40,896 nt of DNA from a virus. The notes under the pieces were generated by a model. The model worked only from the letters and a program-made list of their open reading frames with translations, had not been told where the DNA came from and made no database searches. A program made the position numbers and the translations under genes. The first letter of the stretch is position 1. Each line of letters starts with the position of its first letter. Below, piece by piece: positions 1 to 40,525 of the stretch. Location of the stretch: IMG/VR virus record IMGVR_UViG_3300020195_000062, positions 1-40,896 of that record. One strand, 5' to 3'.

Positions 1-205
1 GAGAGGATATAATATTCTCTTTTGGAATTACAATTACTCTGCGAAACTCATCATCAACCAAATCGCCAGCTAATACTATTTTGGTTTTGTCCTCTCTAAT
101 AACAAACCCTACACTGGAAATAACAGCAACTTCAAACTCCTCATCTTTGTCACATTGAGTGATGAACATATTACTATCCCTCCAAGTTATTATTCTTGAT
201 TTCAT
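1..205 (-). CDS. hypothetical protein, partial (left edge cuts the 3' end)
   Basis: The N-terminal 68 codons of a small acidic protein (starts M-K-S-R-I-I-T-W-R-D), identical to the complete 70-aa copy at 38417-38629. The ATG at 205 directly follows the stop of the 97-aa gene at 207, so the pair is translated together. I recognise no domain. Alternating hydrophobic residues (E-V-A-V-I-S-S-V-G-F-V-I) suggest a small beta-rich fold. Confidence 0.7.
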   Translation of the reverse strand, partial: MKSRIITWRDSNMFITQCDKDEEFEVAVISSVGFVIREDKTKIVLAGDLVDDEFRRVIVIPKENIISS

Positions 206-206
206 C

Positions 207-500
207 TTATTCTTTAGGTAGGGAGGATCTGCCTCCTTTCTTTCCATTTTCACGACTAGATTTTGCTTTTTTTGTGGTTTTAATTGAACCCATTGATACT
301 GCTTTTCTATTTTTTTTACTGCAAATGTGCTTTACCCATTGATGATTTGGATAATGGCTATCGTGTGTGAAGTCAAATTCCAATTCCCCACTAGCACCAT
401 TACCAGCTTTAACTATTAAAGTTCCCTTAGTGCCGTCCTTATCGCATTTTTGGCAAGCGTGTGGTCCATAATAAACTAACTTCTCGTCTGTTTCTTTCAT
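207..500 (-). CDS. hypothetical protein with CxxC and His residues, basic tail (copy 1)
   Basis: 97 aa. The first half has C-Q-K-C, then H-D-S-H and H-I-C, a plausible single zinc site. The second half is Lys/Ser/Gly-rich (K-K-A-K-S-S-R-E-N-G-K-K-G-G-R) and may bind nucleic acid. An identical copy is at 38631-38924. It is preceded by a good sigma70-type promoter (542-570) and a leader of about 35 nt with no Shine-Dalgarno site. Function unknown. Confidence 0.7.
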   Translation of the reverse strand: MKETDEKLVYYGPHACQKCDKDGTKGTLIVKAGNGASGELEFDFTHDSHYPNHQWVKHICSKKNRKAVSMGSIKTTKKAKSSRENGKKGGRSSLPKE

Positions 501-541
501 AATTTTTAGGGTTTTTTAATAATAATGTTTTCCCTTAGTGT

Positions 542-570
542 ATTATATGCTAGCGTTAGGTTTATTGCAA
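542..570 (-). promoter_or_regulatory. sigma70-type promoter (TTGCAA-N17-TATAAT), copy 1
   Basis: On the minus strand, TTGCAA (565-570) is followed by a 17-bp spacer and a perfect TATAAT (542-547), pointing at the 97-aa gene starting at 500. It lies directly after the stop of the gene at 572. The duplicate copy is at 38966-38994. Confidence 0.6.
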
Positions 571-571
571 G

Positions 572-877
572 TTATATATCTTTAGGGTTAGTGTCTAGGG
601 ATGCGAGGAGTCTTTCACATAAATCATTTAGAGTTTCGTGCCGTTTTCCTTCTATTCTTATTTCAGGGCAAATTACTTTTCCCTCGCCATTTGTTATTCT
701 TTCAGTTTCAATTATAAATCTTTGTTCCCAAGTTTCACTTGCACGTCCACTAAATCTTTCAAAACCACCCTGCATAGTTATTTTGAATAGATTTTTATCG
801 CCACCATACCAACCCAGGTTATAGCCCCATGCAAGTAGTTTCTCAAATCCTACTAAATTATATGGTTCGTATTTCAT
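572..877 (-). CDS. hypothetical protein with shared SLDTNPKDI tail
   Basis: 101 aa, starting M-K-Y-E-P-Y-N-L-V. The body is unlike its neighbours (W-G-Y-N-L-G-W-Y-G-G-D-K), but the end, L-L-A-S-L-D-T-N-P-K-D-I, is the tail block also seen at the end of the 38996 gene. Its ATG overlaps the stop of the upstream gene (ATGA), so the two are probably coupled. Only the tail belongs to the modular family; the body is unrecognised. Confidence 0.65.
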   Translation of the reverse strand: MKYEPYNLVGFEKLLAWGYNLGWYGGDKNLFKITMQGGFERFSGRASETWEQRFIIETERITNGEGKVICPEIRIEGKRHETLNDLCERLLASLDTNPKDI

Positions 878-1431
878 ATATTTTTATCTGTTAATGGTTT
901 ATCTAGGGAGGCGAGGATGTCGTCTAGGGCTTGGTTTCTAAAATTATCTTCGCAAGGATATTCTTCGCTTAGCTTTCTTGCTTTATCTTCATCGGACCAA
1001 CGAACCCACTTACCACCTGTCGGGCTATCCCAAACAGAACAATGACAGGCATACTCAAACTCTTTTTCACCTTTTTTATATTCCACCTCAAGTTTGTTAT
1101 CTTGTATATCCATTTCACCCATAAAACACAGTGAACACATAAACGGAACGCTGGAATATCCACCCATTTCATTTGGTGTTGGGTTGTGTTGATATAATCT
1201 TGGCTCAGAAAACTCAATACCTCTTTTCATTCCTTCAAGAATACCCCTCACCCTCTTCCTATCTTCTGCTAGGGCTTGGTGGATTGATTCGGTAACAAAC
1301 TCCTTAAAACATTCTTCTTGGAAGTTTGATATAAAGCAAGGATATGATTGGTGTGTTTGTGGTGCAAAACTATCTTCAACTGCTATAAATGTCTCATCAA
1401 ATTCCTCTAATATTTTTTCTGTGTGGGTCAT
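874..1431 (-). CDS. modular accessory protein (head, middle and tail blocks)
   Basis: 185 aa with all three family blocks. The head is M-T-H-T-E-K-I-L-E-E-F-D-E, the middle (about residues 60-80) H-Q-A-L-A-E-D-R-K-R-V-R, and the tail L-A-S-L-D-K-P-L-T-D-K-N-I. Between middle and tail is a unique insert with C-S-L-C and C-H-C motifs, possibly metal-binding. The middle block shares a 34-nt identical stretch with the gene at 37817-38164, although the surrounding residues differ. The stop overlaps the next ATG. Function unknown; the blocks suggest shuffled domains. Confidence 0.75.
   Translation of the reverse strand: MTHTEKILEEFDETFIAVEDSFAPQTHQSYPCFISNFQEECFKEFVTESIHQALAEDRKRVRGILEGMKRGIEFSEPRLYQHNPTPNEMGGYSSVPFMCSLCFMGEMDIQDNKLEVEYKKGEKEFEYACHCSVWDSPTGGKWVRWSDEDKARKLSEEYPCEDNFRNQALDDILASLDKPLTDKNI
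875..917 (-). repeat. tail block of the modular array, example at 875-917
   Basis: Minus strand: CTCCCTAGA-AAACCATTAACAGAT-AAATAT-ATG. It encodes S-L-D-K-P-L-T-D-K-N-I and then the next ATG. Variants occur near 571-612, 35780-35818, 36478-36508, 37821-37860, 38164-38195 (partial), 38387-38430, 38995-39032, 39448-39475 (diverged) and 39740-39780. Confidence 0.8.
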
Positions 1432-1433
1432 AT

Positions 1434-1529
1434 CTATTCCTCTTGCGAGCTGTTAGTTAATAATCCCCCTATAAATGTCTTTGTTTCTTCTGACTCTTGT
1501 ATTCGTTTTATTGTTTCTTCGTGGGTCAT
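1434..1529 (-). CDS. very small hypothetical protein, head-block relative
   Basis: 31 aa, M-T-H-E-E-T-I-K-R-I-Q-E-S-E-E and onward. The first residues resemble the family head (M-T-H-T-E-K-I-L). It ends two bases before the ATG of the 874-1431 gene and starts one base after the stop of the gene at 1531. It could be a degenerate head block used as a coupling peptide. Support is its tight spacing and start sequence only. Confidence 0.4.
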   Translation of the reverse strand: MTHEETIKRIQESEETKTFIGGLLTNSSQEE

Positions 1530-2800: not shown

Positions 2801-3211
2801 TTAAAAACTGAGGTCATCATCTTGTAATGTTTTTCCACTTGCACTGTTCGCGTCATCGTCTGTTGCTTCCAAGGCGAGCATACTCTGTAAAGCGTACCTT
2901 CTGTAGTACGTTATGACAGACCCTGTTTCTTGGGCTGTTTTGCCCTCTGGTAGCACGCATGTCTCAACAATTGCATCTACACCGTCTGCATCCATAATCG
3001 ACGTTTTAAGGGCAATTCTGCCCGTTTCATGGGTGGTCAGGGATTGCATGAGGATAAGTCCGTGCTTATTTAAGATTGGTTTCACTTCTGCGAGTACTGC
3101 GTTGATGTCGAAGTACTTTGATTTGAAGAAGGGGTTTGTACTATCTCTTTTTATTGCTCCGGTTTCTTCTTGGCACAAAAGTAGTTTTTGTCGTAGTGAA
3201 TTAGTAGTCAT
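2801..3211 (-). CDS. erf: ERF-family single-strand annealing recombinase
   Basis: 136 aa. It shows ERF hallmarks: N-P-F-F-K-S-K-Y-F-D-I-N-A-V near residue 27, K-P-I-L-N-K-H-G-L-I-L, G-S-V-I-T-Y-Y-R-R-Y-A-L-Q-S-M-L near residue 100, and the acidic D-D-D-A-N end. ERF proteins anneal complementary strands and, in P22, circularise terminally redundant genomes after entry. The protein is short for the family, essentially just the annealing core. It overlaps the upstream 54-aa gene by 11 bases. ERF without an integrase fits a circularly permuted, headful-packaged genome. Confidence 0.85.
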   Translation of the reverse strand: MTTNSLRQKLLLCQEETGAIKRDSTNPFFKSKYFDINAVLAEVKPILNKHGLILMQSLTTHETGRIALKTSIMDADGVDAIVETCVLPEGKTAQETGSVITYYRRYALQSMLALEATDDDANSASGKTLQDDDLSF

Positions 3212-9553: not shown

Positions 9554-10168
9554 TTATCCACAGTTTTCCCCTGTACAACCTTGACTCTTTTTCTGCATCA
9601 TTTGAGCAATCATTTGTTGGTAGAGCACAATGAGCTGTCTTAGTAGTTCCATCTTCTCCCCATCTTTGTTTTGCAAAGGGATGAACGGGACATCTGTTTT
9701 CTTCGGAGGGTACACAGTCTTCCTTGCCCAGTCATCTGGGAGGAGGTTGCCGTAACATTCTGTTGTTAGCTGGAGTCCACGGTGAGGAAAGATGTTTTGC
9801 TTCGGTATTGAAATTGTTGTGCCCTTTTTTACTTTGAGCATATATGCGTTCTGCTCGATAATGTTGAGGGCGAGTACACGCAAGGTGTCCTTCTGTGCGT
9901 CTGTCGGAAGTCCTGTAGAGAAGTTTCCTGCGAGGCAGATAGACACGGTGTCCTTGTTGTGTCCTTTCTGTGCGGCTGTTTCTTCTCCGACAAACCTACA
10001 CTGTGTCCATTCGCCATTCTTCCAGATGATGATGTTGTAGCCTACCCAGAGGTCAGGTCGCATTTCTGAAGGCAAATCAATCCACCGTGACTTATGCCAC
10101 GCGTTGATACTTTGGAGGGTGTCGAAGTTTCCTGCGGTGTGATGTACCGCTATGTTTGTTATTTTCAT
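9554..10168 (-). CDS. N-acetylmuramoyl-L-alanine amidase (endolysin)
   Basis: 204 aa, Amidase_2/PGRP fold. H9-H10-T-A-G at the start, Y44-N in the middle, H129-R-G and C138-Y-G near the end supply the zinc ligands (His9, His129, Cys138). It cuts the bond between the sugar and peptide parts of peptidoglycan. After residue 150 there is a Pro/Lys linker and a hydrophobic/polar helix ending in Met/Gln-rich sequence and C-T-G-E-N-C-G. With the SLT enzyme the phage has two wall-degrading activities. It overlaps the upstream 49-aa gene by ATGA. Confidence 0.9.
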   Translation of the reverse strand: MKITNIAVHHTAGNFDTLQSINAWHKSRWIDLPSEMRPDLWVGYNIIIWKNGEWTQCRFVGEETAAQKGHNKDTVSICLAGNFSTGLPTDAQKDTLRVLALNIIEQNAYMLKVKKGTTISIPKQNIFPHRGLQLTTECYGNLLPDDWARKTVYPPKKTDVPFIPLQNKDGEKMELLRQLIVLYQQMIAQMMQKKSQGCTGENCG

Positions 10169-23568: not shown

Positions 23569-24483
23569 TTACGCCGCTGTAAGAATTCTTACACCTGCTT
23601 CATCTCGGTTTTCAACTACACCGTAGAGCAAGTCTGCGGTTGTAAGAGTCGAGAGGTATTCAGGAATGTAGTTCGATTGAATACGAACTCCATGCTTACC
23701 TGTCATTGAACTACCTAGTGAACCACCTGACCCAAGTGGAGACCTTGCCCAATGAAGAGCGTCTTTGTGGGCTAGTGTGTTATATCTACCTGCTGTTCCT
23801 GACACGTTCTGAACGTTGTTAGATACGAACACTGGGATACCATACAAAGTTGCTCGTGGAAGTTTTGCTGTTGGGTCATTCACTGGTGAATTAATCGCGA
23901 GAGAAAACTTATCGAGGTTTTGTACTTGTTTCCAGAACACTGCTGGTGAAAGGAAGAACGCGACATCTGACTGGGTGTCAATACCTACTGATTCGAGAGC
24001 TGAGATAGCTGCACGGATTTCACTGTCGGCTAGGTTGGTAGTAGAAGCACCAACTACTGTTGAGAAACCTTTGAAAAGGTCTGCTAGTGCTAATTCTAAC
24101 TTTCTTGCCATTGTGTAACCAGCACTCTGAGCATACCTCTCCTGGAGGTAGTATGACTGCTTAACCTGTGCTGCTTCACGGTCTTCGATAGCAAATGATA
24201 CTTCAAACCACTGGTCTACAGTGAGAGTTACCTTTGTGTCAGTAGCGTTGTTAAGAGTAACTGCTGTTGCGTTACTTTTAGCTGCTGCTGCAAACTCGGT
24301 AAGATTCGGAGTGTAGAGTGCTGAACCTCCATCTGCTAATTCTGCAGAACGGTCTGTGAAGAACTCTGCAATCGAGAGTTTCAATTTGAAGAACTCGTTG
24401 ATTTTCTCACCCCAGATTAGAGGAATACTTTCCGCTAATGTGGTTGAGGATTGTGACGCTGTTGGAAATGTTCCAGTTGCCAT
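23569..24483 (-). CDS. major capsid protein (HK97-type fold, podovirus-like)
   Basis: 304 aa. M-A-T-G-T-F-P-T-A-S-Q-S-S-T-T-L-A-E-S-I-P-L-I-W leads into an N-arm, then a beta/helix part (V-T-L-T-V-D-Q-W-F-E-V-S-F-A-I-E-D-R-E-A) and A-R-K-L-E-L-A-L-A-D-L, a long helix like the HK97 spine. L-Y-G-I-P-V-F-V-S-N-N-V (about residue 218) and an end with V-E-N-R-D-E-A-G-V-R-I are typical coat features. It follows the scaffold gene by 41 bases, as in many podoviruses, and is the expected most abundant product. Confidence 0.85.
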   Translation of the reverse strand: MATGTFPTASQSSTTLAESIPLIWGEKINEFFKLKLSIAEFFTDRSAELADGGSALYTPNLTEFAAAAKSNATAVTLNNATDTKVTLTVDQWFEVSFAIEDREAAQVKQSYYLQERYAQSAGYTMARKLELALADLFKGFSTVVGASTTNLADSEIRAAISALESVGIDTQSDVAFFLSPAVFWKQVQNLDKFSLAINSPVNDPTAKLPRATLYGIPVFVSNNVQNVSGTAGRYNTLAHKDALHWARSPLGSGGSLGSSMTGKHGVRIQSNYIPEYLSTLTTADLLYGVVENRDEAGVRILTAA

Positions 24484-27441: not shown

Positions 27442-27600
27442 CTAACGTGAACTCTTATTATCGTTCCTCTGCCTACTCTCCAGTCGTTCTAATCTCTCAA
27501 TCGGGTCAATGTCTTCATTAAAGGCTCTCCCATTCTTAAAATAAATACTCTTGATAAGAGCAAACTCTGCTGGGTCGTGAAGTGTGGGTCTTTTATCCAT
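27442..27600 (-). CDS. 52-aa protein coupled to the large terminase
   Basis: M-D-K-R-P-T-L-H-D-P-A-E-F-A-L-I-K-S-I-Y-F-K-N-G ... I-E-R-L-E-R-L-E-S-R-Q-R. Its ATG shares a base with the terminase stop (TAATG), which strongly suggests coupled translation. Helical, charged C-terminus. It could be a terminase partner, but no motif says so. Confidence 0.6.
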   Translation of the reverse strand: MDKRPTLHDPAEFALIKSIYFKNGRAFNEDIDPIERLERLESRQRNDNKSSR

Positions 27601-28832
27601 TATCGTGTTTGATTAACCTGCCCTCTTAACCTACTCATAAGCCTTTCAGCCTTCTCGGCTTCCATGTCACCCGTTCCATCCTTGATAAGTGAAGCAAGAG
27701 CGTAGCGTAGTGCATCCATTGAATGGTCAAAGCCGGCTTCTGGTTCATTGATTATCTTTTCATTCTTATCGGTAGTCCAAAAGAAGTTGTTGTATTCCCT
27801 AATGATGTTCTGAGACCTTTGGGTAAGAGATACTTTCTGTGCTTGAATTGTCGTAATGCCATGCACGATACTATCACTCCCTTTCACAGCACCTACAATA
27901 CTGATTCCGTAGCTTGCTATCTCGTCAATACTCTTAGGCTCTGCACTATCAGCCACAACAAGAGCTGTGTCATGGTTCCTTAGTATGTCCCCTATTTGTT
28001 TATTGCTTAGCCCCTTTTGAAAGGTTATCTCATCTAAGATATAGCCTCCGTTGTAGTAGTAAACAGCAACAATAGATGTTGGGTCGTTTGAATAGCCAAA
28101 GTCTAGTCCATAGCGTTCTAGTCTTGCTTCGTGGGGTATTGATTCAATGATAGCCCAGTTTCTGTATATCTTTCTTTCAAGACTATTAGGCTCTCCTAGC
28201 CACTTATGTTTATACAATGCAGGTCGCTTCTCTTTGTCATCCTCCATTTCAAGGCGAATAATATCGGGCATCATCTTGTACTTCATTGCGATGTCGTAGT
28301 TCACATTGATGACGAGTGTGTTGGGTCTACCTTCTAGTACAAGTCTTTGGTGTACAGGGTCATCTTCAAGGAGTCTGTTGTATGTATATATAATCCGTGA
28401 GCCTTCCTTTCTAACTGTAGGTGTAAGGACATCAATGCTTGGCTTAGATACTGATTGTGCTTCTTCTACCCATGCTATATCAATACCCTCGATAGACTTG
28501 ATAGATTGCTCGTTGCGGTGCATTCCTTTGAATAGAAAGTCAGAGCCATTGAGCTTATTTATGATTGAGTTGTTTGTTATCTCAAACTCTTTTAGTTCGT
28601 AGAGGTTTATAAGGTCTGCAAGGAGTTGGTGTGAACTGTCAGCAATAGAGCTTTGAAACTCTCGGAAGCACGCTATTCGTGTCTTCTTCATACGAGCTTG
28701 TATCAATAGGTATCTTGCTACTGTGTGAGACTTCAAAGAGAACCTTCCTCCGTAGACAGCAGCTTCACGCCAGTCATTATCAAACAAGCGTTTGTACTCT
28801 ATTGGTATCTCTACTACTTTTAGGTTATCCAT
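27600..28832 (-). CDS. terL: terminase large subunit, PBSX family
   Basis: 410 aa from ATG 28832 (a TTG one codon earlier is not needed). ATPase: Walker A G-G-R-F-S-L-K-S (28-35) and Walker B I-D-I-A-W-V-E-E (117-124). Nuclease (RNase H fold): D244 in Y-G-L-D-F-G-Y, D295 in V-A-D-S-A-E-P, and D369/D373 in F-D-H-S-M-D-A-L-R. It pumps DNA into the prohead through the portal and cuts it. The Walker A form GGRxSxKS is usual in PBSX types. Overlaps the small terminase gene by 8 bases. Confidence 0.93.
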   Translation of the reverse strand: MDNLKVVEIPIEYKRLFDNDWREAAVYGGRFSLKSHTVARYLLIQARMKKTRIACFREFQSSIADSSHQLLADLINLYELKEFEITNNSIINKLNGSDFLFKGMHRNEQSIKSIEGIDIAWVEEAQSVSKPSIDVLTPTVRKEGSRIIYTYNRLLEDDPVHQRLVLEGRPNTLVINVNYDIAMKYKMMPDIIRLEMEDDKEKRPALYKHKWLGEPNSLERKIYRNWAIIESIPHEARLERYGLDFGYSNDPTSIVAVYYYNGGYILDEITFQKGLSNKQIGDILRNHDTALVVADSAEPKSIDEIASYGISIVGAVKGSDSIVHGITTIQAQKVSLTQRSQNIIREYNNFFWTTDKNEKIINEPEAGFDHSMDALRYALASLIKDGTGDMEAEKAERLMSRLRGQVNQTR

Positions 28833-29094
28833 CAATGAACTTAACTAAGATTGGTACTGGTGTTGTTATCTCTAGGGTGGTTGAGGTGTCTTGTTGTGCT
28901 TTACCCTCTGCAAACTCAATCATATCTTTACCGCTTACCTTGTGATCTGAGAGGAATCGTTCTTTATCCTCGTCTGACATTTCCATAAACTTCTTACTTA
29001 GAAATTGCTTCATTGTTCCCTTTGGTCTGCCACTAATGTTACCTGATTGCCCAGGCTGAAACCTTGTACTTATTGATGGGTTAGGATTAGACAT
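28825..29094 (-). CDS. terS: probable terminase small subunit
   Basis: 89 aa. The start reads S-T-R-F-Q-P-G-Q-S-G-N-I-S-G-R-P-K-G-T, the F-x-P-G-Q-S-G-N-x-x-G-R-P-K-G signature of small DNA-binding proteins found beside phage terminases. A helical middle and beta end follow. It overlaps TerL by 8 bases. It would recognise the packaging site. The call rests on the N-terminal signature and position, since small subunits vary widely. Confidence 0.7.
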   Translation of the reverse strand: MSNPNPSISTRFQPGQSGNISGRPKGTMKQFLSKKFMEMSDEDKERFLSDHKVSGKDMIEFAEGKAQQDTSTTLEITTPVPILVKFIDG

Positions 29095-34048: not shown

Positions 34049-35046
34049 TAGTTGAGCCATTGTTTATTTTCTAAAGACCATTGTATATATTTTATGAGGG
34101 ATTCCTTGAGGTTGAATGGCATAACCCACCCTGTTTCTCTTAGCTTAGTTCCGTCTAGTGCGTAACGTCGGTCATGACCCTTTCGTTCCACATGGAAGTC
34201 TACAAGCTTGTATTTTAACTCCTTGCCCATGAGTTCAGCTACCATTATTGCAGCTTCACGATTATCAAGCTCATCATCAGAGGTTACATTGAATCTTAGG
34301 GGTCTATCTTGCTCATCTTTACACATTTTCACAGGGAGATTTTCTAGGATGTGGAGGATTGCGTCTGCGTGATTGTCTACATAAAGGTAATATCTTCCAC
34401 CGATATAGTTGTCGTTTCCGTGTATGGTTACAGTCTCGTCATTGTGAATAAGTTTTATCAGCTTTGATAAATATTTTTCGCTATCCTGATTTTCACCGAA
34501 GTTGTTGACAGTGTTGGTCAAAACTAAAGGCACATCATAGGTTCTCCAATAAGAGATGGCGAGGGCTTCTTGTGCTGCTTTTGAGGCCGCATAGGGATTT
34601 GAGGGAAGTATTGCATCCCATTCCTTGTACCTTGTTCCTATTGGTGCAGAGCCATACACTTCATCAGTAGAGACCTGTAAAAAGACTTTGGGCTTAACTA
34701 TACGAGCAAGCTCTAGCATCGTTAGAATTAACTCAACATTGTTTTGGATAAAGGGTACCGGGTCTTCGATTGAGCGATAAACGTGTGAATCACTCGCAAC
34801 ATTCACAATGTAATCAATCTGAGGCAGGGTGGAGATGGTATGTTCTGTAAAACGCTTTGTGAGGTCGTGAGTGATTACTCGCACTCTGTCTCGATATTCT
34901 GGTGTTCTATCAAATATCTCGGTTATTCTTTCTGGTGTTCCTTTGTGGGACCACGATGCAGGACAAATAAAATTCCAGTCTGTGTTTTTGAGAAAGTATT
35001 CTAAACAATGAGAGCCAATAAATCCGCTGGCTCCACTGCATATCAT
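34048..35046 (-). CDS. NAD-dependent sugar-nucleotide epimerase/dehydratase
   Basis: 332 aa from ATG 35046, chosen because it overlaps the HNH stop (ATGA) and gives the family start I-C-S-G-A-S-G-F-I-G-S-H. Rossmann G-x-x-G-F-I-G, catalytic serine/threonine region V-S-T-D-E-V-Y-G (about 125), Y-A-A-S-K (about 150) with the Tyr-x-x-x-Lys pair. Looks like dTDP-glucose 4,6-dehydratase-type or GDP-mannose-type enzymes. It supplies an activated deoxy sugar to the transferases downstream. Confidence 0.9.
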   Translation of the reverse strand: MICSGASGFIGSHCLEYFLKNTDWNFICPASWSHKGTPERITEIFDRTPEYRDRVRVITHDLTKRFTEHTISTLPQIDYIVNVASDSHVYRSIEDPVPFIQNNVELILTMLELARIVKPKVFLQVSTDEVYGSAPIGTRYKEWDAILPSNPYAASKAAQEALAISYWRTYDVPLVLTNTVNNFGENQDSEKYLSKLIKLIHNDETVTIHGNDNYIGGRYYLYVDNHADAILHILENLPVKMCKDEQDRPLRFNVTSDDELDNREAAIMVAELMGKELKYKLVDFHVERKGHDRRYALDGTKLRETGWVMPFNLKESLIKYIQWSLENKQWLN

Positions 35047-35483
35047 AGTCCTTTGGTATTTTTTTTCCATTTTCTTGTTGTTTGCCAATGGTGTTTCAGG
35101 TGCTCAGATTTGTTGGCAAATAAATATAAATTGTTAATTTTGTTGTTGTTTGGGTTGTTGTCAATATGGTGCACCACCTCCTCACTTGACAATTTTCTCC
35201 CCAAATGTTTTTCCATTACATATCTGTGGTATTTTAATCGGATACCGTCCTTGCCAATGTTCCAATAGCCTGTATTTTTATCAAAATACGGTTTTCCACT
35301 TCCCGTATTCCAAGGCTTTTGCCCCTTCTTAAAACTTGTTGGGTTCTCCTTAACCAGCTGATAAACAAGCCCGACAGGTCTTGTGCGGTATTTGTAGAAA
35401 CACTTTTTGCAACAATACTTCTTTCTGTGAAGAAGGTAGGGTTTGACAAAGAAGACTTTTCCACACGGGCAGGTTTTATCCAT
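35043..35483 (-). CDS. HNH homing endonuclease (HNH_3 type)
   Basis: 146 aa. N-terminal zinc finger C-P-C-G-K ... Y-C-C-K-K-C, a linker with F-K-K-G-Q-K-P-W-N, then Y-H-R-Y-V-M-E-K-H-L-G-R-K-L, V-V-H-H-I-D-N-N-P-N-N-N-K-I-N-N-L, the HNH_3 active site. A leaderless promoter with TATAAT six bases from the ATG drives it. It is the first gene of the glycan island and overlaps the dehydratase gene by 4 bases. Confidence 0.9.
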   Translation of the reverse strand: MDKTCPCGKVFFVKPYLLHRKKYCCKKCFYKYRTRPVGLVYQLVKENPTSFKKGQKPWNTGSGKPYFDKNTGYWNIGKDGIRLKYHRYVMEKHLGRKLSSEEVVHHIDNNPNNNKINNLYLFANKSEHLKHHWQTTRKWKKNTKGL

Positions 35484-35543: not shown

Positions 35544-35780
35544 CTACTTCTTTGCATTTACTTCTGGTCCTTCTGGTTTGAAATCTGTTATAGCTTGGTT
35601 GATTGCCTTTAGGTTTGCTTGGCTTTGTTCAAGGTTTACCAATGAGTCGTATGCCATTGCCTTTAGTTGCTCAAGGGTGATATTTTCTTTATACATATTG
35701 TTTATATTATTACACATAATAATGGTTAATTTATCCAGTAATTCCATAGTTTCTTTGAAAAATGGGGCTGTGTTGGTCAT
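35544..35780 (-). CDS. small helical protein with family-like start
   Basis: 78 aa: M-T-N-T-A-P-F-F-K-E-T-M-E-L-L-D-K-L-T and onward, ending K-P-E-G-P-E-V-N-A-K-K. The first four residues and the upstream bases (CGATATATGACCAACAC) match the modular head block, but then the sequence diverges. A charged, helical body (L-E-Q-L-K-A-M-A-Y-D-S-L-V-N-L-E-Q). Function unknown; shows that the head block also joins unrelated bodies. Confidence 0.6.
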   Translation of the reverse strand: MTNTAPFFKETMELLDKLTIIMCNNINNMYKENITLEQLKAMAYDSLVNLEQSQANLKAINQAITDFKPEGPEVNAKK

Positions 35781-35786
35781 ATATCG

Positions 35787-35936
35787 TTATTTAGTTGGTT
35801 TGTCTAGGGAGTAGAGGAAAGATTGGACATATTTTTCGTAAAGTTTCATTGCGTTCTTCTCGTCTTGCATAGATAGTCCTGCAAAGAAACTATCAAAACT
35901 TTCAAACTCCGCTAAGATTTTTTCTGTGCAATTCAT
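35787..35936 (-). CDS. short modular protein (head and tail only)
   Basis: 49 aa: M-N-C-T-E-K-I-L-A-E-F-E-S-F-D-S-F-F and, after a short body, L-Y-S-L-D-K-P-T-K. Head and tail blocks are joined by only about 30 residues with no middle block, so it is the smallest family member. The tail DNA continues past the stop into the next ATG as in other members. Confidence 0.6.
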   Translation of the reverse strand: MNCTEKILAEFESFDSFFAGLSMQDEKNAMKLYEKYVQSFLYSLDKPTK

Positions 35937-35938
35937 AT

Positions 35939-36478
35939 TCACTTTGTTATTTTAGTAAAAATTATTTGTTTCGGAAGTATATCTCGACAAATATACACAG
36001 TCTTAAACGAAATGCCTTTATTTTTCTGATTTTCAAACTCGGTTCTTTTATCTGGGATAAGCATTTGTGGTTCTATTCCATTTTTCATAAATAAATTAGG
36101 TATACCATTATCGCCAAAACTGTTAAAAGGTAGAAATAATGCAAATGGTTTTCCAAAACTTATAGCCTTTTCTACATACTTTGTTTTATTTTTGAAAGGT
36201 GGATTGTCTAAAATAATATCAAAGTGAAAGTTTGGGATATTCGTTAGGAAATCAACACCCTCCCAAGTTTCTGGGTTGTAATGAGTATTTATTACTTTAT
36301 AACCTTTTCCACGGAGATAGTCTGCAAAGTTATGTTCATCTCGGCTAAATGGTGCCCAAATAACCCAGTCTTTATTTATGTAAGGAAGAATAATATCAAC
36401 TGCATATTTAGGTGTGTATGCCTCAATGTTATTCTTATCCATATTTACAAACCTTTCTTGTATGCTGTTTGGTTTCAT
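35939..36478 (-). CDS. DNPPF-type (N6/N4) methyltransferase-like protein
   Basis: 179 aa. Y-T-P-K-Y-A-V-D-I-I-L-P-Y-I (21-34), W-A-P-F-S (41-45) in place of motif I, V-I-N-T-H-Y-N-P (62-69), F-D-I-I-L-D-N-P-P-F (86-95), the catalytic motif of amino-methyltransferases. It is shorter than full DNA methyltransferases and lacks an obvious target recognition domain, as in several phage Dam-like proteins. It overlaps the GHKL gene by ATGA. DNA adenine methylation for defence is the favoured role. Confidence 0.75.
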   Translation of the reverse strand: MKPNSIQERFVNMDKNNIEAYTPKYAVDIILPYINKDWVIWAPFSRDEHNFADYLRGKGYKVINTHYNPETWEGVDFLTNIPNFHFDIILDNPPFKNKTKYVEKAISFGKPFALFLPFNSFGDNGIPNLFMKNGIEPQMLIPDKRTEFENQKNKGISFKTVYICRDILPKQIIFTKITK

Positions 36479-37761
36479 ATATCTGTTAATGGTTTGTCTA
36501 GGGCGTTAATTAACTCATCAATGAGGAATGTAACAAACTCGCGTTGTCCGTCATTGTGTCCAATGGCGTGAAAGTGCTCTTCCAGTAAGGTGTTTTTCAC
36601 CTCCTTAATACTGTTTAGGTGTTTTCTTGCGTGGTAGATGATATCGCTTTCTTTGTCGTACCAAGCAATAACATCACTGGTCATGGTTTCTACAATAACT
36701 ATCTTGGAATCTATTCTATACCCCACGTTAGTTAGTTGCTCGATTGCGGTTGATATTAACTTCTCTTCCGCTGTGGTCGCTACCAATTCCTTAAACTGCT
36801 TGTCCCCCTTCATTCCAACCACCTCAATATCCTTGAACTGCTTAGAAATCTTCATTGCTAGTTGTTCTGGGACGATAAAGCTATTTGACTTACCTTCAAA
36901 ATCACCAGAATGTATGGCTAGGTTTTCTGGATAAACCCTCTTCCCTAATAGGATTGAGTGCCACATATCTGAGAGTTTGTCGCTGACGTACTCCCAATTA
37001 AGATTTTCCTCGAAGTTGCCCTTCCAGTTCCGTAAATAGTTCTCAATAGTCATCTTGTTAGAAGTTACAGCAAAATATGAAGCAATCCTTTCTTTCACTT
37101 GGTGTTCGTATTGGTAAGTTCGGCTTTCGTTTATCTCGATTTTGTCGAAGTTGTACCAGCATAATGATTTTGTCGCATTCTTTGGGTAAATCCTTATGCC
37201 CTTACGATAACAGATAAACTCTTCGCCTTCCCTCGCCAGAAGTTCAACTTTCCCATAGCCTGTGTTTTCTATACTTCGGTTAGTTCTACCGCCCAGCAGG
37301 ATAAACCTCTCTATGTTCTTGAAAAAATCTTCCAGTTGTACTGTTAAGGCAACAAACACACTAGTTTTCCCCGCGACTCCTTTTGGCTCTTGGGTAATCT
37401 TCATATCAGGACTACCTTCATCTACTGCATTACAATACAACTCTCTAATAGCAAACCAAGTTTCCCAATCGGGTCCCATTGAGGTTGTTAACGAGGTCTT
37501 CTCTCCATCTATAACAATCTGCTCAAAAAGCTTACCCCTAAACATTACTTGCTCAGTTTCAATCCTTACCTCTTTCTTGCCAGAGAAAATCCTTACTGGT
37601 ATTTTTTCTCGTAGTAAGAGAGCGAGTGCGTACTTATTCCCAGAGCCAAAGAAGCCAATTTTATCTTCATCCTCTCTTTTAGAAGAAACTCCCATTAGAT
37701 GTAAGCCACCCAACTCTATCTCTCCTTTATTTGTTATCTGAACCCAAGTTGTTTTTTTCAT
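36475..37761 (-). CDS. GHKL-type ATPase with C-terminal HxH motif
   Basis: 428 aa. Residues 8-60 (I-T-N-K-G-E-I-E-L-G-G-L, K-I-G-F-F-G-S-G-N-K-Y-A-L-A) are the Gly-rich ATP lid of GHKL (Hsp90/MORC/MutL) proteins; R-E-L-Y-C-N-A-V-D-E-G (about 112) is the N-box helix. After an S5-like middle the end reads L-L-E-E-H396-F-H398-A-I-G-H402-N-D, which may bind metal. The last residues L-D-K-P-L-T-D-I are the accessory tail block. Known MORC-like phage proteins have unclear roles. Could be an anti-defence or DNA-remodelling machine. Confidence 0.8.
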   Translation of the reverse strand: MKKTTWVQITNKGEIELGGLHLMGVSSKREDEDKIGFFGSGNKYALALLLREKIPVRIFSGKKEVRIETEQVMFRGKLFEQIVIDGEKTSLTTSMGPDWETWFAIRELYCNAVDEGSPDMKITQEPKGVAGKTSVFVALTVQLEDFFKNIERFILLGGRTNRSIENTGYGKVELLAREGEEFICYRKGIRIYPKNATKSLCWYNFDKIEINESRTYQYEHQVKERIASYFAVTSNKMTIENYLRNWKGNFEENLNWEYVSDKLSDMWHSILLGKRVYPENLAIHSGDFEGKSNSFIVPEQLAMKISKQFKDIEVVGMKGDKQFKELVATTAEEKLISTAIEQLTNVGYRIDSKIVIVETMTSDVIAWYDKESDIIYHARKHLNSIKEVKNTLLEEHFHAIGHNDGQREFVTFLIDELINALDKPLTDI

Positions 37762-37816
37762 ATATCTTTATTCTTTTAAGTTTGTTTACATCTTTTCTTG
37801 AATGTATACAAAGTTG

Positions 37817-38164
37817 CTAGTTTTGTTTATCTGTTAATGGTTTGTCTAGGGAGGAGAGAGTGGTATAAATATCATCTACAGTTTGACTACAGCAGCCTGA
37901 TTTAGTTTTATAATGGCCCAGATATTCCCTCACCCTCTTCCTATCTTCTGCTAGGGCTTGTTGGATTGAGGCGGAGAGGAATGCGAGCATTTGTTCTCCT
38001 GTATCTTCCCAATCTTTTGTATCCTTATTCAGAGTAAGTGTTTCTTGATACCAAGGACACCCAGTTGTTGAGTAGTCGCACGCTTCTCTTAAGCACGCCT
38101 TGCATATTTTTTGTTTAAGAAACTTCTCTCTAAACTCCTCTAATCTTTTTTCTGTGTTGGTCAT
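37817..38164 (-). CDS. modular accessory protein with cysteine-rich insert
   Basis: 115 aa: head M-T-N-T-E-K-R-L-E-E-F-R-E-K-F, insert C-K-A-C-L-R-E-A-C-D-Y-S-T-T-G-C-P-W (four cysteines, likely zinc), middle Q-Q-A-L-A-E-D-R-K-R-V-R-E-Y-L, tail L-S-S-L-D-K-P-L-T-D-K-Q-N. The middle DNA shares 34 identical bases with the 874-1431 gene, yet the inserts are unrelated. Followed on the transcript by no gene for 1.3 kb leftward except the GHKL/methyltransferase pair upstream in coordinates. Function unknown. Confidence 0.72.
   Translation of the reverse strand: MTNTEKRLEEFREKFLKQKICKACLREACDYSTTGCPWYQETLTLNKDTKDWEDTGEQMLAFLSASIQQALAEDRKRVREYLGHYKTKSGCCSQTVDDIYTTLSSLDKPLTDKQN
37929..37960 (-). repeat. 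middle block of the modular array, example
   Basis: Codes Q-A-L-A-E-D-R-K-R-V-R. The 34-nt stretch around it is identical to one near 1246-1279 in an otherwise different gene. Related copies lie near 39151-39182 and 39931-39970. Confidence 0.75.
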
Positions 38165-38180
38165 ATATCTTTATTATCTG

Positions 38181-38387
38181 TTAAAAGACTTCTAGTGCTG
38201 ACTTTCGTATTACTTCAAACTGCTCTTCTGTGATGAACACTTCTAGTATATTCTTTTCGATTTCTCTACGAGGGTAATCAGAATTATCTATTCTTGAACT
38301 TCCAAATCGTGAGCGGTCTTTATAGTCAGCCATTTCAGCCTCGTATTGGTCGTTGTTTACAAATCTTTTTATGTTTAATTTAATCAT
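38181..38387 (-). CDS. small basic/acidic hypothetical protein
   Basis: 68 aa: M-I-K-L-N-I-K-R-F-V-N-N-D-Q-Y-E-A-E-M-A-D-Y, later I-L-E-V-F-I-T-E-E-Q-F-E-V-I-R-K-S. Starts right after the conserved AACAGATAAATAAAGATATATG element. No known family. One of several unrelated bodies placed next to tail blocks. Confidence 0.6.
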   Translation of the reverse strand: MIKLNIKRFVNNDQYEAEMADYKDRSRFGSSRIDNSDYPRREIEKNILEVFITEEQFEVIRKSALEVF

Positions 38388-38416
38388 ATATCTTTATTTA
38401 TCTGTTAATGGTTTGT

Positions 38417-38629
38417 CTAGGGAGGAGAGGATATAATATTCTCTTTTGGAATTACAATTACTCTGCGAAACTCATCATCAACCAAATCGCCAGCTAATAC
38501 TATTTTGGTTTTGTCCTCTCTAATAACAAACCCTACACTGGAAATAACAGCAACTTCAAACTCCTCATCTTTGTCACATTGAGTGATGAACATATTACTA
38601 TCCCTCCAAGTTATTATTCTTGATTTCAT
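38417..38629 (-). CDS. hypothetical protein (complete copy of the left-edge gene)
   Basis: 70 aa from ATG 38629, which follows the 97-aa gene stop by one base. The body equals the partial copy at 1-205. Its end (N-I-I-S-S-P-P) is made by reading the tail-block DNA in another frame: the block would encode S-S-L-D-K-P-L-T-D-K if shifted. That shows the block is conserved as DNA, not only as protein. Confidence 0.65.
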   Translation of the reverse strand: MKSRIITWRDSNMFITQCDKDEEFEVAVISSVGFVIREDKTKIVLAGDLVDDEFRRVIVIPKENIISSPP

Positions 38630-38630
38630 C

Positions 38631-38924
38631 TTATTCTTTAGGTAGGGAGGATCTGCCTCCTTTCTTTCCATTTTCACGACTAGATTTTGCTTTTTTTGTG
38701 GTTTTAATTGAACCCATTGATACTGCTTTTCTATTTTTTTTACTGCAAATGTGCTTTACCCATTGATGATTTGGATAATGGCTATCGTGTGTGAAGTCAA
38801 ATTCCAATTCCCCACTAGCACCATTACCAGCTTTAACTATTAAAGTTCCCTTAGTGCCGTCCTTATCGCATTTTTGGCAAGCGTGTGGTCCATAATAAAC
38901 TAACTTCTCGTCTGTTTCTTTCAT
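38631..38924 (-). CDS. hypothetical protein with CxxC and His residues, basic tail (copy 2)
   Basis: Identical to the 97-aa protein at 207-500, including the C-Q-K-C and H-x-C set. Upstream promoter (38966-38994) is also duplicated. Two perfect copies 38 kb apart indicate recent duplication or active conversion; function unknown. Confidence 0.7.
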   Translation of the reverse strand: MKETDEKLVYYGPHACQKCDKDGTKGTLIVKAGNGASGELEFDFTHDSHYPNHQWVKHICSKKNRKAVSMGSIKTTKKAKSSRENGKKGGRSSLPKE

Positions 38925-38965
38925 AATTTTTAGGGTTTTTTAATAATAATGTTTTCCCTTAGTGT

Positions 38966-38994
38966 ATTATATGCTAGCGTTAGGTTTATTGCAA
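38966..38994 (-). promoter_or_regulatory. sigma70-type promoter (TTGCAA-N17-TATAAT), copy 2
   Basis: Duplicate of 542-570: perfect TATAAT and TTGCAA with 17-bp spacing, in front of the second copy of the 97-aa gene. Confidence 0.6.
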
Positions 38995-38995
38995 G

Positions 38996-39319
38996 TTATA
39001 TATCTTTAGGGTTAGTGTCTAGGGAGGAGAGGAGTGCTCCTAGTACAACATTTATTTCCAAGGCTGAATCGCACTCCACGCAATCGGTCTTTTGAAACTT
39101 CGGCAATCCGTGTTCAGGACATTCCCAATGGCTTTCTTCTATAATTTTTCCTACCCTCTCCCTATCTTCTGCTAGGGCTTGTGCGATTTTGGAGGCAATA
39201 AACTCTTTCATTTCAGTAACTACCCAAAGACCTACTCCATAATGAAAATCGACGTCTTCAGTTCTTTTTATTTTAATCCATTCATCAAACTCCGCTAAGA
39301 TTTTATCTGTGTCGTTCAT
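38996..39319 (-). CDS. modular accessory protein with CxxC-type insert
   Basis: 107 aa: head M-N-D-T-D-K-I-L-A-E-F-D-E-W-I, middle A-Q-A-L-A-E-D-R-E-R-V-G-K-I-I, insert C-P-E-H-G-L-P-K-F-Q-K-T-D-C-V-E-C (zinc-like), tail L-S-S-L-D-T-N-P-K-D-I. The insert differs from those of the other members and sits after the middle block rather than before it. The tail DNA is shared with the 572 gene and forms the repeat boundary. Confidence 0.7.
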   Translation of the reverse strand: MNDTDKILAEFDEWIKIKRTEDVDFHYGVGLWVVTEMKEFIASKIAQALAEDRERVGKIIEESHWECPEHGLPKFQKTDCVECDSALEINVVLGALLSSLDTNPKDI

Positions 39320-39328
39320 ATATGTTTA

Positions 39329-39448
39329 TTATTTTAATAATCCTCCAATAATTAGTCCTAAAACTGTACCTATAAAGAATATACCTAACAACATCGCCAC
39401 ATCTATTTGAAATTCTTTATGTAATATGTTTTTGAGTTGTTCTTTCAT
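39329..39448 (-). CDS. 39-aa single-span membrane protein
   Basis: M-K-E-Q-L-K-N-I-L-H-K-E-F-Q-I-D-V-A, then a hydrophobic helix M-L-L-G-I-F-F-I-G-T-V-L-G-L-I-I-G-G-L-L and K. Its ATG overlaps the stop of the 98-aa gene (ATGA), and its stop lies 9 bases before the next start. Small membrane protein of unknown role. Confidence 0.55.
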   Translation of the reverse strand: MKEQLKNILHKEFQIDVAMLLGIFFIGTVLGLIIGGLLK

Positions 39449-39741
39449 ATCTCTTTTAATTTGTCTTGGGAGGAGATGGCTTTCTTAAAAACATCTACTC
39501 TCATACTAACAGCGTGTCCTGTTTTTCTTTTACATTCAATAATATCTGTGTCATTCCATCTGCCACAATAACCTAAAACACTTACTATCTTTTTCAACAT
39601 CTCCTGTTCTACTTCTTCAAAGTAGTCCAGTTTATCTTTTAAGTCCTGCCAGTCTTTACAATTTTCTAAGGGATGACCGTGCTTATCTGTGAAGGAGTAA
39701 GTCTCTAACTTGTCTATAAGATTGAGTAGTTCTTCTTTCAT
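39445..39741 (-). CDS. small hypothetical protein with variant tail
   Basis: 98 aa: M-K-E-E-L-L-N-L-I-D-K-L-E-T-Y, C-K-D-W-Q-D-L-K-D-K-L-D, middle V-L-G-Y-C-G-R-W-N-D-T-D-I-I-E-C-K-R-K-T-G, end I-S-S-Q-D-K-L-K-E-I. The ending S-S-Q-D-K-L-K-E-I looks like a diverged tail block. Two overlapping joints (ATGA both sides). Confidence 0.6.
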   Translation of the reverse strand: MKEELLNLIDKLETYSFTDKHGHPLENCKDWQDLKDKLDYFEEVEQEMLKKIVSVLGYCGRWNDTDIIECKRKTGHAVSMRVDVFKKAISSQDKLKEI

Positions 39742-40277
39742 ATATTTTTATTTATTAATGGTTTGTCTAGGGAAAAGAGGAGGTCGGACAAAACCCTATC
39801 TTTTGCCACCCACACTATTTGAGTTATGACCTTATCATCAAGTCCTTCAGTGGCTTGATTATTTCTTAATTCTCTTTGAACTCTTATAAAGTAATCTGGG
39901 TTAGCAACCAGTCCTTTCATTCCCCCTATCTCCTCCCTCACCCTATCTCTTTCTTCTGCTAGGGCTTGGTTGATTTTGGTGGTGATGAAGGCTTCTATTT
40001 TTTCTAATTCAAACTTTTTAATTGCTCCATTCGTCATTAAATAGCGTAATCCTAGAGAGCTTTCGTCCTTAAGAAATATATCTCTAAACTCCGCTAAGAT
40101 TTTTTCTGTGTTGGTCATGTTATTAGGATTAAAAACCATACCATTGTTCATGGATTTTAAGTTTTCGTCTATACCAGCTTTTCCTTGGTCTATGTGGGAT
40201 TGCTCACGACCTACAGCTTCGTCAAATGCTTTTCTTAGTCCACTGTTTTCTCCTTCAAATATTTCTGATGGTTTCAT
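39738..40277 (-). CDS. modular accessory protein with an extra N-terminal piece
   Basis: 179 aa. Residues 1-53 (M-K-P-S-E-I-F-E-G-E-N-S-G-L-R-K) are unrelated to the family; a full head block M-T-N-T-E-K-I-L-A-E-F-R-D-I-F follows at about residue 54, then middle N-Q-A-L-A-E-E-R-D-R-V-R and tail F-S-L-D-K-P-L-I-N-K-N-I. It may be a read-through fusion of two genes, or start internally at the Met of the head (ATG 40118). Function unknown. Confidence 0.65.
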   Translation of the reverse strand: MKPSEIFEGENSGLRKAFDEAVGREQSHIDQGKAGIDENLKSMNNGMVFNPNNMTNTEKILAEFRDIFLKDESSLGLRYLMTNGAIKKFELEKIEAFITTKINQALAEERDRVREEIGGMKGLVANPDYFIRVQRELRNNQATEGLDDKVITQIVWVAKDRVLSDLLFSLDKPLINKNI

Positions 40278-40525
40278 TACTTTAATATGTTACTGATATC
40301 TTCTAATCCGACCACTTCTCTTTTTATATCTCCGTCAGAGATAATGAATTTTACTTTCTCTATCTCCTCTTGCTTTGATTTTAGGAGGGAGTCTATTTTC
40401 TTTATCCACCAGTCAGCCATATTTCCTACGCCAATATACTTTTCACTGCCATCATTGTTTGACCAGATAATACTATCGGCAAAGTTTTGAAACTCCTCTC
40501 TTAATTCTTTTTCTGTGTTAGTCAT
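40277..40525 (-). CDS. modular family relative (head, diverged middle)
   Basis: 82 aa: M-T-N-T-E-K-E-L-R-E-E-F-Q-N-F-A-D, later I-D-S-L-L-K-S-K-Q-E-E-I-E-K-V-K in the middle-block position and no standard tail (I-S-N-I-L-K at the end). Probably a diverged member. Its stop shares a base with the start of the next gene. Confidence 0.6.
   Translation of the reverse strand: MTNTEKELREEFQNFADSIIWSNNDGSEKYIGVGNMADWWIKKIDSLLKSKQEEIEKVKFIISDGDIKREVVGLEDISNILK

Follow-up and report, generated by a model that had tools for sequence, protein, structure and literature searches.

Small phage genes with common head, middle and tail blocks and interchangeable front and back bodies

The array and its setting in the window

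The stretch of DNA analysed here, referred to as the window, is a complete IMG/VR record (IMGVR_UViG_3300020195_000062; handle G000) of 40,896 bp in the class linear. It belongs to a tailed phage with terminase, major head protein, amidase and ERF genes, and it carries an array of small genes that, together with all their blocks, lie on the minus strand (Table 1). The original prediction, made from this sequence alone, held that at least six of these genes share a head, a middle and a tail block around differing bodies. The blocks were borne out, with corrections on which gene has which: all three are present in genes 874, 37817, 39738 and 38996 (the last with the variant tail SLDTNPKDI), whereas 35787 lacks the middle and 40277 has the head only. 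The consensus is GATATATGACCTACACAGAAAAAAGATTAGAGGAGTTT for the head, TTCCTCTCCGACTCAATCGCACAAGCCATAGCAGAAGAAAGGGAGAGGGTG for the middle and CCTCTCCTCCCTAGACAAACCATTAACAGATAAAGAA for the tail, each block being 37-51 nt long. The longest exact common runs measure 34 nt in the middle (genes 874 and 37817, as predicted), 33 nt in the tail and 25 nt in the head; in 30 surrogate sequences drawn from a first-order Markov model of the window, no repeat exceeded 17 nt. In many cases the tail runs through the stop codon, AAAGATAT and ATG into the head as a single unbroken junction stretch. That the tail also ends genes with unrelated bodies was confirmed for gene 572, in a variant form, and for the GHKL-like gene 36475, for which an IMG/VR search with the gene as bait gave zero relatives. 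The middle and the tail start with a similar pyrimidine tract (TTCCTCTCCTCC, FLSS), and this common start would allow a middle-to-tail deletion as in gene 35787, which equals the front body of L095_232 fused directly to the tail.

Table 1. Array genes, blocks and selected other features of the window.
Feature	Position	Strand	Remarks
Tail-bearing gene, variant tail	572..877	-	G003 has a copy with 98% identity, among different neighbouring genes
Cassette gene, 185 aa: head, front body, middle, Cys-containing back body, tail	874..1431	-	
Middle block of gene 874	1249..1299	-	found with nhmmer
31-aa 'empty' member of a second modular family, MTHEETIKRIQ / ESEETKTFIGGLLTNSSQEE	1434..1529	-	
Small gene, last array gene before the conserved flank	35544..35780	-	shares first ~18 nt of head
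51-aa gene, head and tail, no middle or back body	35787..35942	-	
GHKL-ATPase-like gene (phrog_8203)	36475..37761	-	in-frame tail block at end; GHKL label from the original prediction only
Cassette gene, 115 aa, all three blocks	37817..38164	-	
Tail block of gene 37817	37822..37858	-	33 nt identical to 38393-38432
Middle block of gene 37817	37931..37981	-	34 nt identical to middle of 874
Head block of gene 37817, upstream GATAT included	38132..38169	-	
68-aa gene without middle	38181..38387	-	transferred between window and G003 as a single tail-to-head unit (305 bp, 94%)
Tail block out of frame with preceding ORF 38417 (ends ...SSPP*)	38393..38432	-	start of 38181 follows directly
Cassette gene, 107 aa, variant tail	38996..39319	-	
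Middle block of gene 38996	39153..39202	-	
39-aa membrane-like ORF between array genes	39329..39448	-	also in G023, at 100% identity
Cassette gene, 179 aa, 53-aa leader ahead of internal head	39738..40277	-	leader common to G023
Middle block of gene 39738	39939..39989	-	
Small gene, head block only	40277..40525	-	
ERF-family ssDNA annealing protein	2801..3211	-	PF04404, 5.5e-27; phrog_2324, 7e-35
Amidase	9554-10168		
Major head protein	23569-24483		
Terminase	27600-28835		
611-bp direct repeat	1..611 and 38425..39035		99.7% identity, two mismatches; copy 1-611 stops inside a tail block

Two features had been overlooked in the original prediction, namely the 611-bp direct repeat and the second modular family. 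Because the repeat ends sharply in a tail block, the contig holds two alternative arms upstream of gene 38631, which are either two strain variants or a real duplication; the repeat suggests that two array variants coexisted in the sampled population. In a close relative, G003 (IMGVR_UViG_3300020213_000070), the array runs without a break from one flank to the other, and the window, in which these two flanks are found near opposite ends, is thus a circularly permuted map of the same genome.

Outside the array, the segment 29209-35088, between the terminase gene and the array, holds glycosyltransferase-like, methyltransferase-like and NDP-sugar epimerase genes with interspersed HNH genes, which is unusual for a 41-kb phage. 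A partial gene at the contig end (40565-40896, minus strand; VLGKKGILIFKCQDYTDS...) is possibly the C-terminus of a methyltransferase. Among named phages, the nearest terminases are less than 60% identical to that of the window. A Shine-Dalgarno-like motif precedes only 2 of 32 core genes; A/T-rich sequence precedes the core gene starts and may hint at the host group. A search for hosts with the middle-block pattern gave zero matches in 84,980 genomes, and a looser pattern gave four, none of which was retained: L063 is a chance match in a large portal-like phage protein, and L064-L066 have no block match in the profile search.

Array replacement and assortment of front and back bodies

G003 has 83 ORFs in common with the window at a median protein identity of 98.8%. 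Its flanking genes are the same and its array, which is crossed in one contig with both flanks included, is almost wholly replaced, nearly everything in the array between window positions 2010 and 35715 being different. Three pieces are kept: 363 bp at 936-574 (the tail of 874 and gene 572), 305 bp at 38432-38132 (tail block to head block around gene 38181) and 129 bp at 1531-1403 (leader to head), and all three terminate in or beside a head or tail block. The original prediction had proposed cassette shuffling at short homology blocks and had set as its test whether the array varies in a close relative with the same flanks; the outcome for G003 favours shuffling, and the proposal is supported by this array replacement together with the assortment of fronts and backs described below.

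The G003 array has features of its own. It starts with a pentapeptide-repeat-like gene (L022 7040-7561; ADLSDANLSGADL), and it contains a 327-bp duplication (L022 7721-8047 and 10458-10784, 93.6%) with a tail remnant (TTAACAGATAAATAA) at one boundary and a head at the other. The second modular family, built as MTHEETIKRIQ, body and SEETKTFIGGLLTN, has three copies there in addition to the one at 1434-1529 of the window: two (L022 7920-8015 and 10657-10752) are 'empty' like the window copy (31 aa), and the third (L022 11176-11604) has a body of about 110 aa between the same ends.

We collected 63 distinct middle-bearing ORFs and clustered their 55 front and 59 back bodies. Among 22 body-sharing pairs, 12 have the same front only, 8 the same back only and 2 both. 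One front body, ILRDGLSEDWYDRTPLEKQRAID, is found in G004, L032 and L089 with three back bodies, each of which recurs elsewhere with a different front (L044, G003 and L050). The front body of gene 38996 of the window recurs in L095 with another back body, and its back body in L038 with another front. Front and back bodies thus assort independently at the middle block, across 46 contigs.

This one-sided sharing rules out plain tandem duplication with drift, in which copies of a single ancestral gene would have drifted apart in their bodies, with protein-level constraint preserving the blocks. Such a history would fit the tandem copies on one strand, the conserved amino acids of head and tail and the true duplication of 327 bp in G003. 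It does not fit the same front with different backs in other phages, and the reverse, nor the invariant wobble bases of a middle block that lies between unrelated bodies, nor arrays that differ between phages 98.8% identical elsewhere, and we give it almost no credence.

The position of the breakpoints was determined at the DNA level. In body-sharing pairs, the identity per 15 nt drops inside the middle block, from about 14/15 to about 5/15 (a few rows are blurred by indels on the shared side). A broad test of all homology ends between arrays gave a modest excess in blocks (21% vs 14%); because structural-gene homology and other repeat families were mixed in, it was replaced by a cassette-only test without whole-body preselection, which comprised 22 alignments with at least 48 nt of body. 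In the latter, 20 of 22 internal ends fell in the middle block, where 28% were expected from its share of the head-to-tail length (about 28%). A binomial estimate for this outcome is about 1e-9, by hand arithmetic and with pairs that are not all independent; because some pairs share a module, there are fewer than 20 independent exchanges. Arrays are replaced between near-identical phages, then, and breakpoints lie within the blocks.

We considered whether an assembler could have joined unrelated contigs at the short common blocks and so created false front/back pairs. The blocks are repeated within and between genomes, and base 1 of the window, where the 611-bp repeat begins, lies in a tail block, as would be expected of a tangle in an assembly graph. 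However, exact common runs within the window reach only about 34 nt, the reading frame is open across every strong middle copy, and the G003 array lies with both flanks in one contig. Moreover, common bodies are usually several per cent apart, synonymous changes included, which is not what one molecule joined twice would give, and the members of body-sharing pairs were sampled in different IMG datasets (that of the window itself being unidentified). Based on the synonymous differences and the separate datasets, we judge assembly chimaeras to be very unlikely.

Conservation of the blocks, their carriers and their products

To what extent the blocks are conserved as DNA was assessed at 33 middle sites from 24 contigs, collected with a pattern that left wobble bases free. 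Ile is ATC, Gln is CAA and the second Ala is GCA at 33/33 sites, and the I/V/L codon ends in A at 33/33 while its first base varies. Because these wobble bases are invariant though the search left them free, block identity is kept at the DNA level; alternatively, these bases could be invariant because the block itself has a function as DNA. A larger set, with a bias because its members were detected at the DNA level, has a synonymous identity of 0.78 in the middle, where codon usage predicts 0.38. The middle occurs in variants, with CCCTAG in 4/4 copies of the window, CCATAG in most G003 copies and GTAGCAG elsewhere, and this preference for one variant per genome suggests that copies are homogenised within a genome. 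Fold z-scores of the blocks were -0.25, -2.19, +1.06 and -0.22; a stem-loop in the middle block was dismissed, as one of three variants folds better than shuffles and a consistent structure is absent.

Conservation at third positions even where the amino acid varies is what one would predict for a dedicated recombination site that is recognised by a specific enzyme, such as a site-specific recombinase or a homing nuclease, and immediately downstream of the array there is an HNH gene (35043-35483). Yet among 18 carriers searched, a tyrosine integrase was found in none and a resolvase in only one, the block DNA varies at several positions and lacks a consistent stem-loop, and the end-point of identity within the block differs from pair to pair. 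A dedicated site therefore appears improbable to us.

Degenerate block patterns found 23, 15, 12 and 66 stretches in IMG/VR, and a profile search gave 71 middle matches in 46 contigs, a few chance matches included. The blocks occur in more than 30 viral contigs: all 32 records checked have 1-5 middle copies, on one strand per genome, and a reversed control pattern had zero matches in the same 32 records. The carriers are unrelated phages. Their 19 terminases form 13 lineages at 60% identity; G001 shares with the window only the terminase (49%) and cassettes, and G004 one further small protein. Every carrier sequence is a metagenome assembly. In 50,697 named phages and 72,556 plasmids the middle block is absent, a query with head and tail gave only chance matches of 20-25 nt, and the named phages have zero cassette proteins. 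Among wider relatives of the flanking glycosyltransferase and ERF genes, blocks are absent outside the window's own species group.

The cassette proteins are about 100 aa long, with bodies mostly of 20-40 aa. Bodies common to different phages have a pN/pS of about 0.42, which means that they encode protein and that purifying selection on them is moderate. The known phage WDGH domain (PF25311, 7e-40) makes up one back body; in a Pfam scan of 54 cassettes there were few family matches, and most bodies matched nothing. An AF2 model of 37817, built with 54 sequences, is all-helical (pLDDT 73, pTM 0.50), with helices at residues 3-19, 49-88 and 94-107 and every one of the three blocks placed within a helix; a fold comparison of this model gave zero matches.

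These helices raise the possibility that the blocks are only a selected protein frame and that recombination at them is ordinary background phage mosaicism, a reading that is also in line with the strong middle copies being in frame and with purifying selection on the bodies. Protein selection, however, leaves the invariant wobble bases across unrelated phages unexplained, tails are fused to unrelated enzymes and once stand out of frame, and confidence in the model is modest. We regard a purely structural role as doubtful, if less so than a dedicated site. The products themselves are probably small, mainly helical accessory proteins acting on the host, for example in counter-defence or takeover, which is a guess from position and variability without functional data; the accessory role suggested in the original prediction is likewise a reasonable guess.

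Proposed exchange at shared blocks and its precedents

The explanation that we favour, and hold to be likely, is that the array is a parts-kit accessory region shuffled by homologous exchange at short shared blocks. It would constitute a hypervariable accessory region of a tailed phage in which each small gene is laid out as head, front, middle, back and tail. In a cell that is host to two replicating block-bearing phages, homologous annealing of strands, or exchange, at a block would swap everything on one side, so that whole genes would be swapped at a tail-head junction and half genes at a middle block, the reading frame being kept because the middle block is always in the same frame. The constant blocks would form helices bearing interchangeable bodies, and new front/back combinations would be tried continually. 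The enzyme, the co-infection setting and the protein function are inferred.

In the window phage, about 1.3 kb separate the array from the ERF gene, which is upstream of it and on the same strand, and the product of this gene would be the most likely enzyme; other carriers may rely on other annealing proteins or on host machinery. Annealing families (ERF, RecT and Rad52) were found in 8/32 carriers: ERF in the window phage, G003, G010 and G017, RecT in 2 others and Rad52 in 2 others, one of the Rad52 matches being below the cut-off. In the remaining 24/32, many of which are fragments, none of the three families was seen. In the recombination of DNA of 78% identity, Erf of phage D3 is as effective as Red-beta, which for its part requires about 30 bp (PMC3945230). 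This relaxed, Rad52-like recombination acts at short diverged homology, as proposed for the ERF-encoding window phage; what is described there is an enzyme, not a standing set of standardised homology blocks.

The original prediction went too far in stating that no described system has this form, since HsdS domain shuffling, conserved boundary sequences and the PeSLs of T4 are real precedents. HsdS is one subunit of about 400 aa. In HsdS / DOMO, two variable domains are swapped by recombination at central and flanking conserved regions (PMC3077401, PMC3874165). The likeness lies in a conserved region that parts two variable halves, each swapped independently, as the assortment and breakpoint tests indicate here. 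In contrast to HsdS, which has a known function and a few bacterial loci, we found arrays of phage proteins of about 100 aa without a restriction partner, whose bodies are unrelated to target-recognition domains and whose blocks cross phage lineages and also end unrelated genes. No Methylase_S or M/R partner was matched by Pfam in 54 cassettes or in the scanned array genes.

In lambdoid-type phages, short conserved junction sequences, termed boundary sequences, were proposed to permit module exchange by homologous recombination, and cannot be found at most mosaic boundaries (PMC3029335). The tail-stop-start-head junctions resemble them, as the pieces kept between G003 and the window end in or beside such junctions; unlike boundary sequences, the blocks described here are coding, one of them lies mid-gene, and they are found at nearly all internal breakpoints tested. 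PeSLs are mobile promoter/stem-loop cassettes of T4-type phages whose repeated motifs shuffle genes between related phages (Arbiol 2010 and Comeau 2014, as cited in PMC4503421). PeSLs are promoter-terminator motifs, whereas the present blocks are coding, have no consistent hairpin, lie inside genes and are exchanged between unrelated phages. A survey of protein mosaicism, with a minimum of 50 aa for an aligned fragment, reported recent within-protein shuffling for the most part among tail proteins and endolysins (PMC10684548); with this minimum it would miss most of the bodies found here, which differ from its cases in being mostly 20-40 aa long with a standard joint. A diversity-generating retroelement differs in its reverse transcriptase, as RVT_1 is absent in the 18 carriers searched, and site-specific shufflons or integron-like cassettes differ in their recombinases, given the count of 0/18 for tyrosine recombinases and 1/18 for resolvases. 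A description of a block-joined front/back system of phage mini-genes was not found in the literature, and within-gene assortment of fronts by backs across unrelated phages is new here.

Most genes for small host-targeting phage proteins look like orphans, so that the origin of new ones is an open question. In the arrays, the parts, the joints and many assembled products are visible side by side, and many apparent orphan genes are new pairings of recurring halves. Bodies are easily found by searching for the joints and reading between them, and the mosaic-exchange hypothesis becomes testable at defined sites of 37-51 nt. It is conceivable, though we put it forward only tentatively, that the blocks are a common currency of DNA joints across the phage community, kept because carriers can plug in half genes from unrelated phages, with selection on the joint nucleotides; if this is true, the arrays would amount to a system of combinatorial protein design that works with standard joints at the level of the population. 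Should the bodies turn out to be counter-defence proteins, large sets of these could be reached through the joints.
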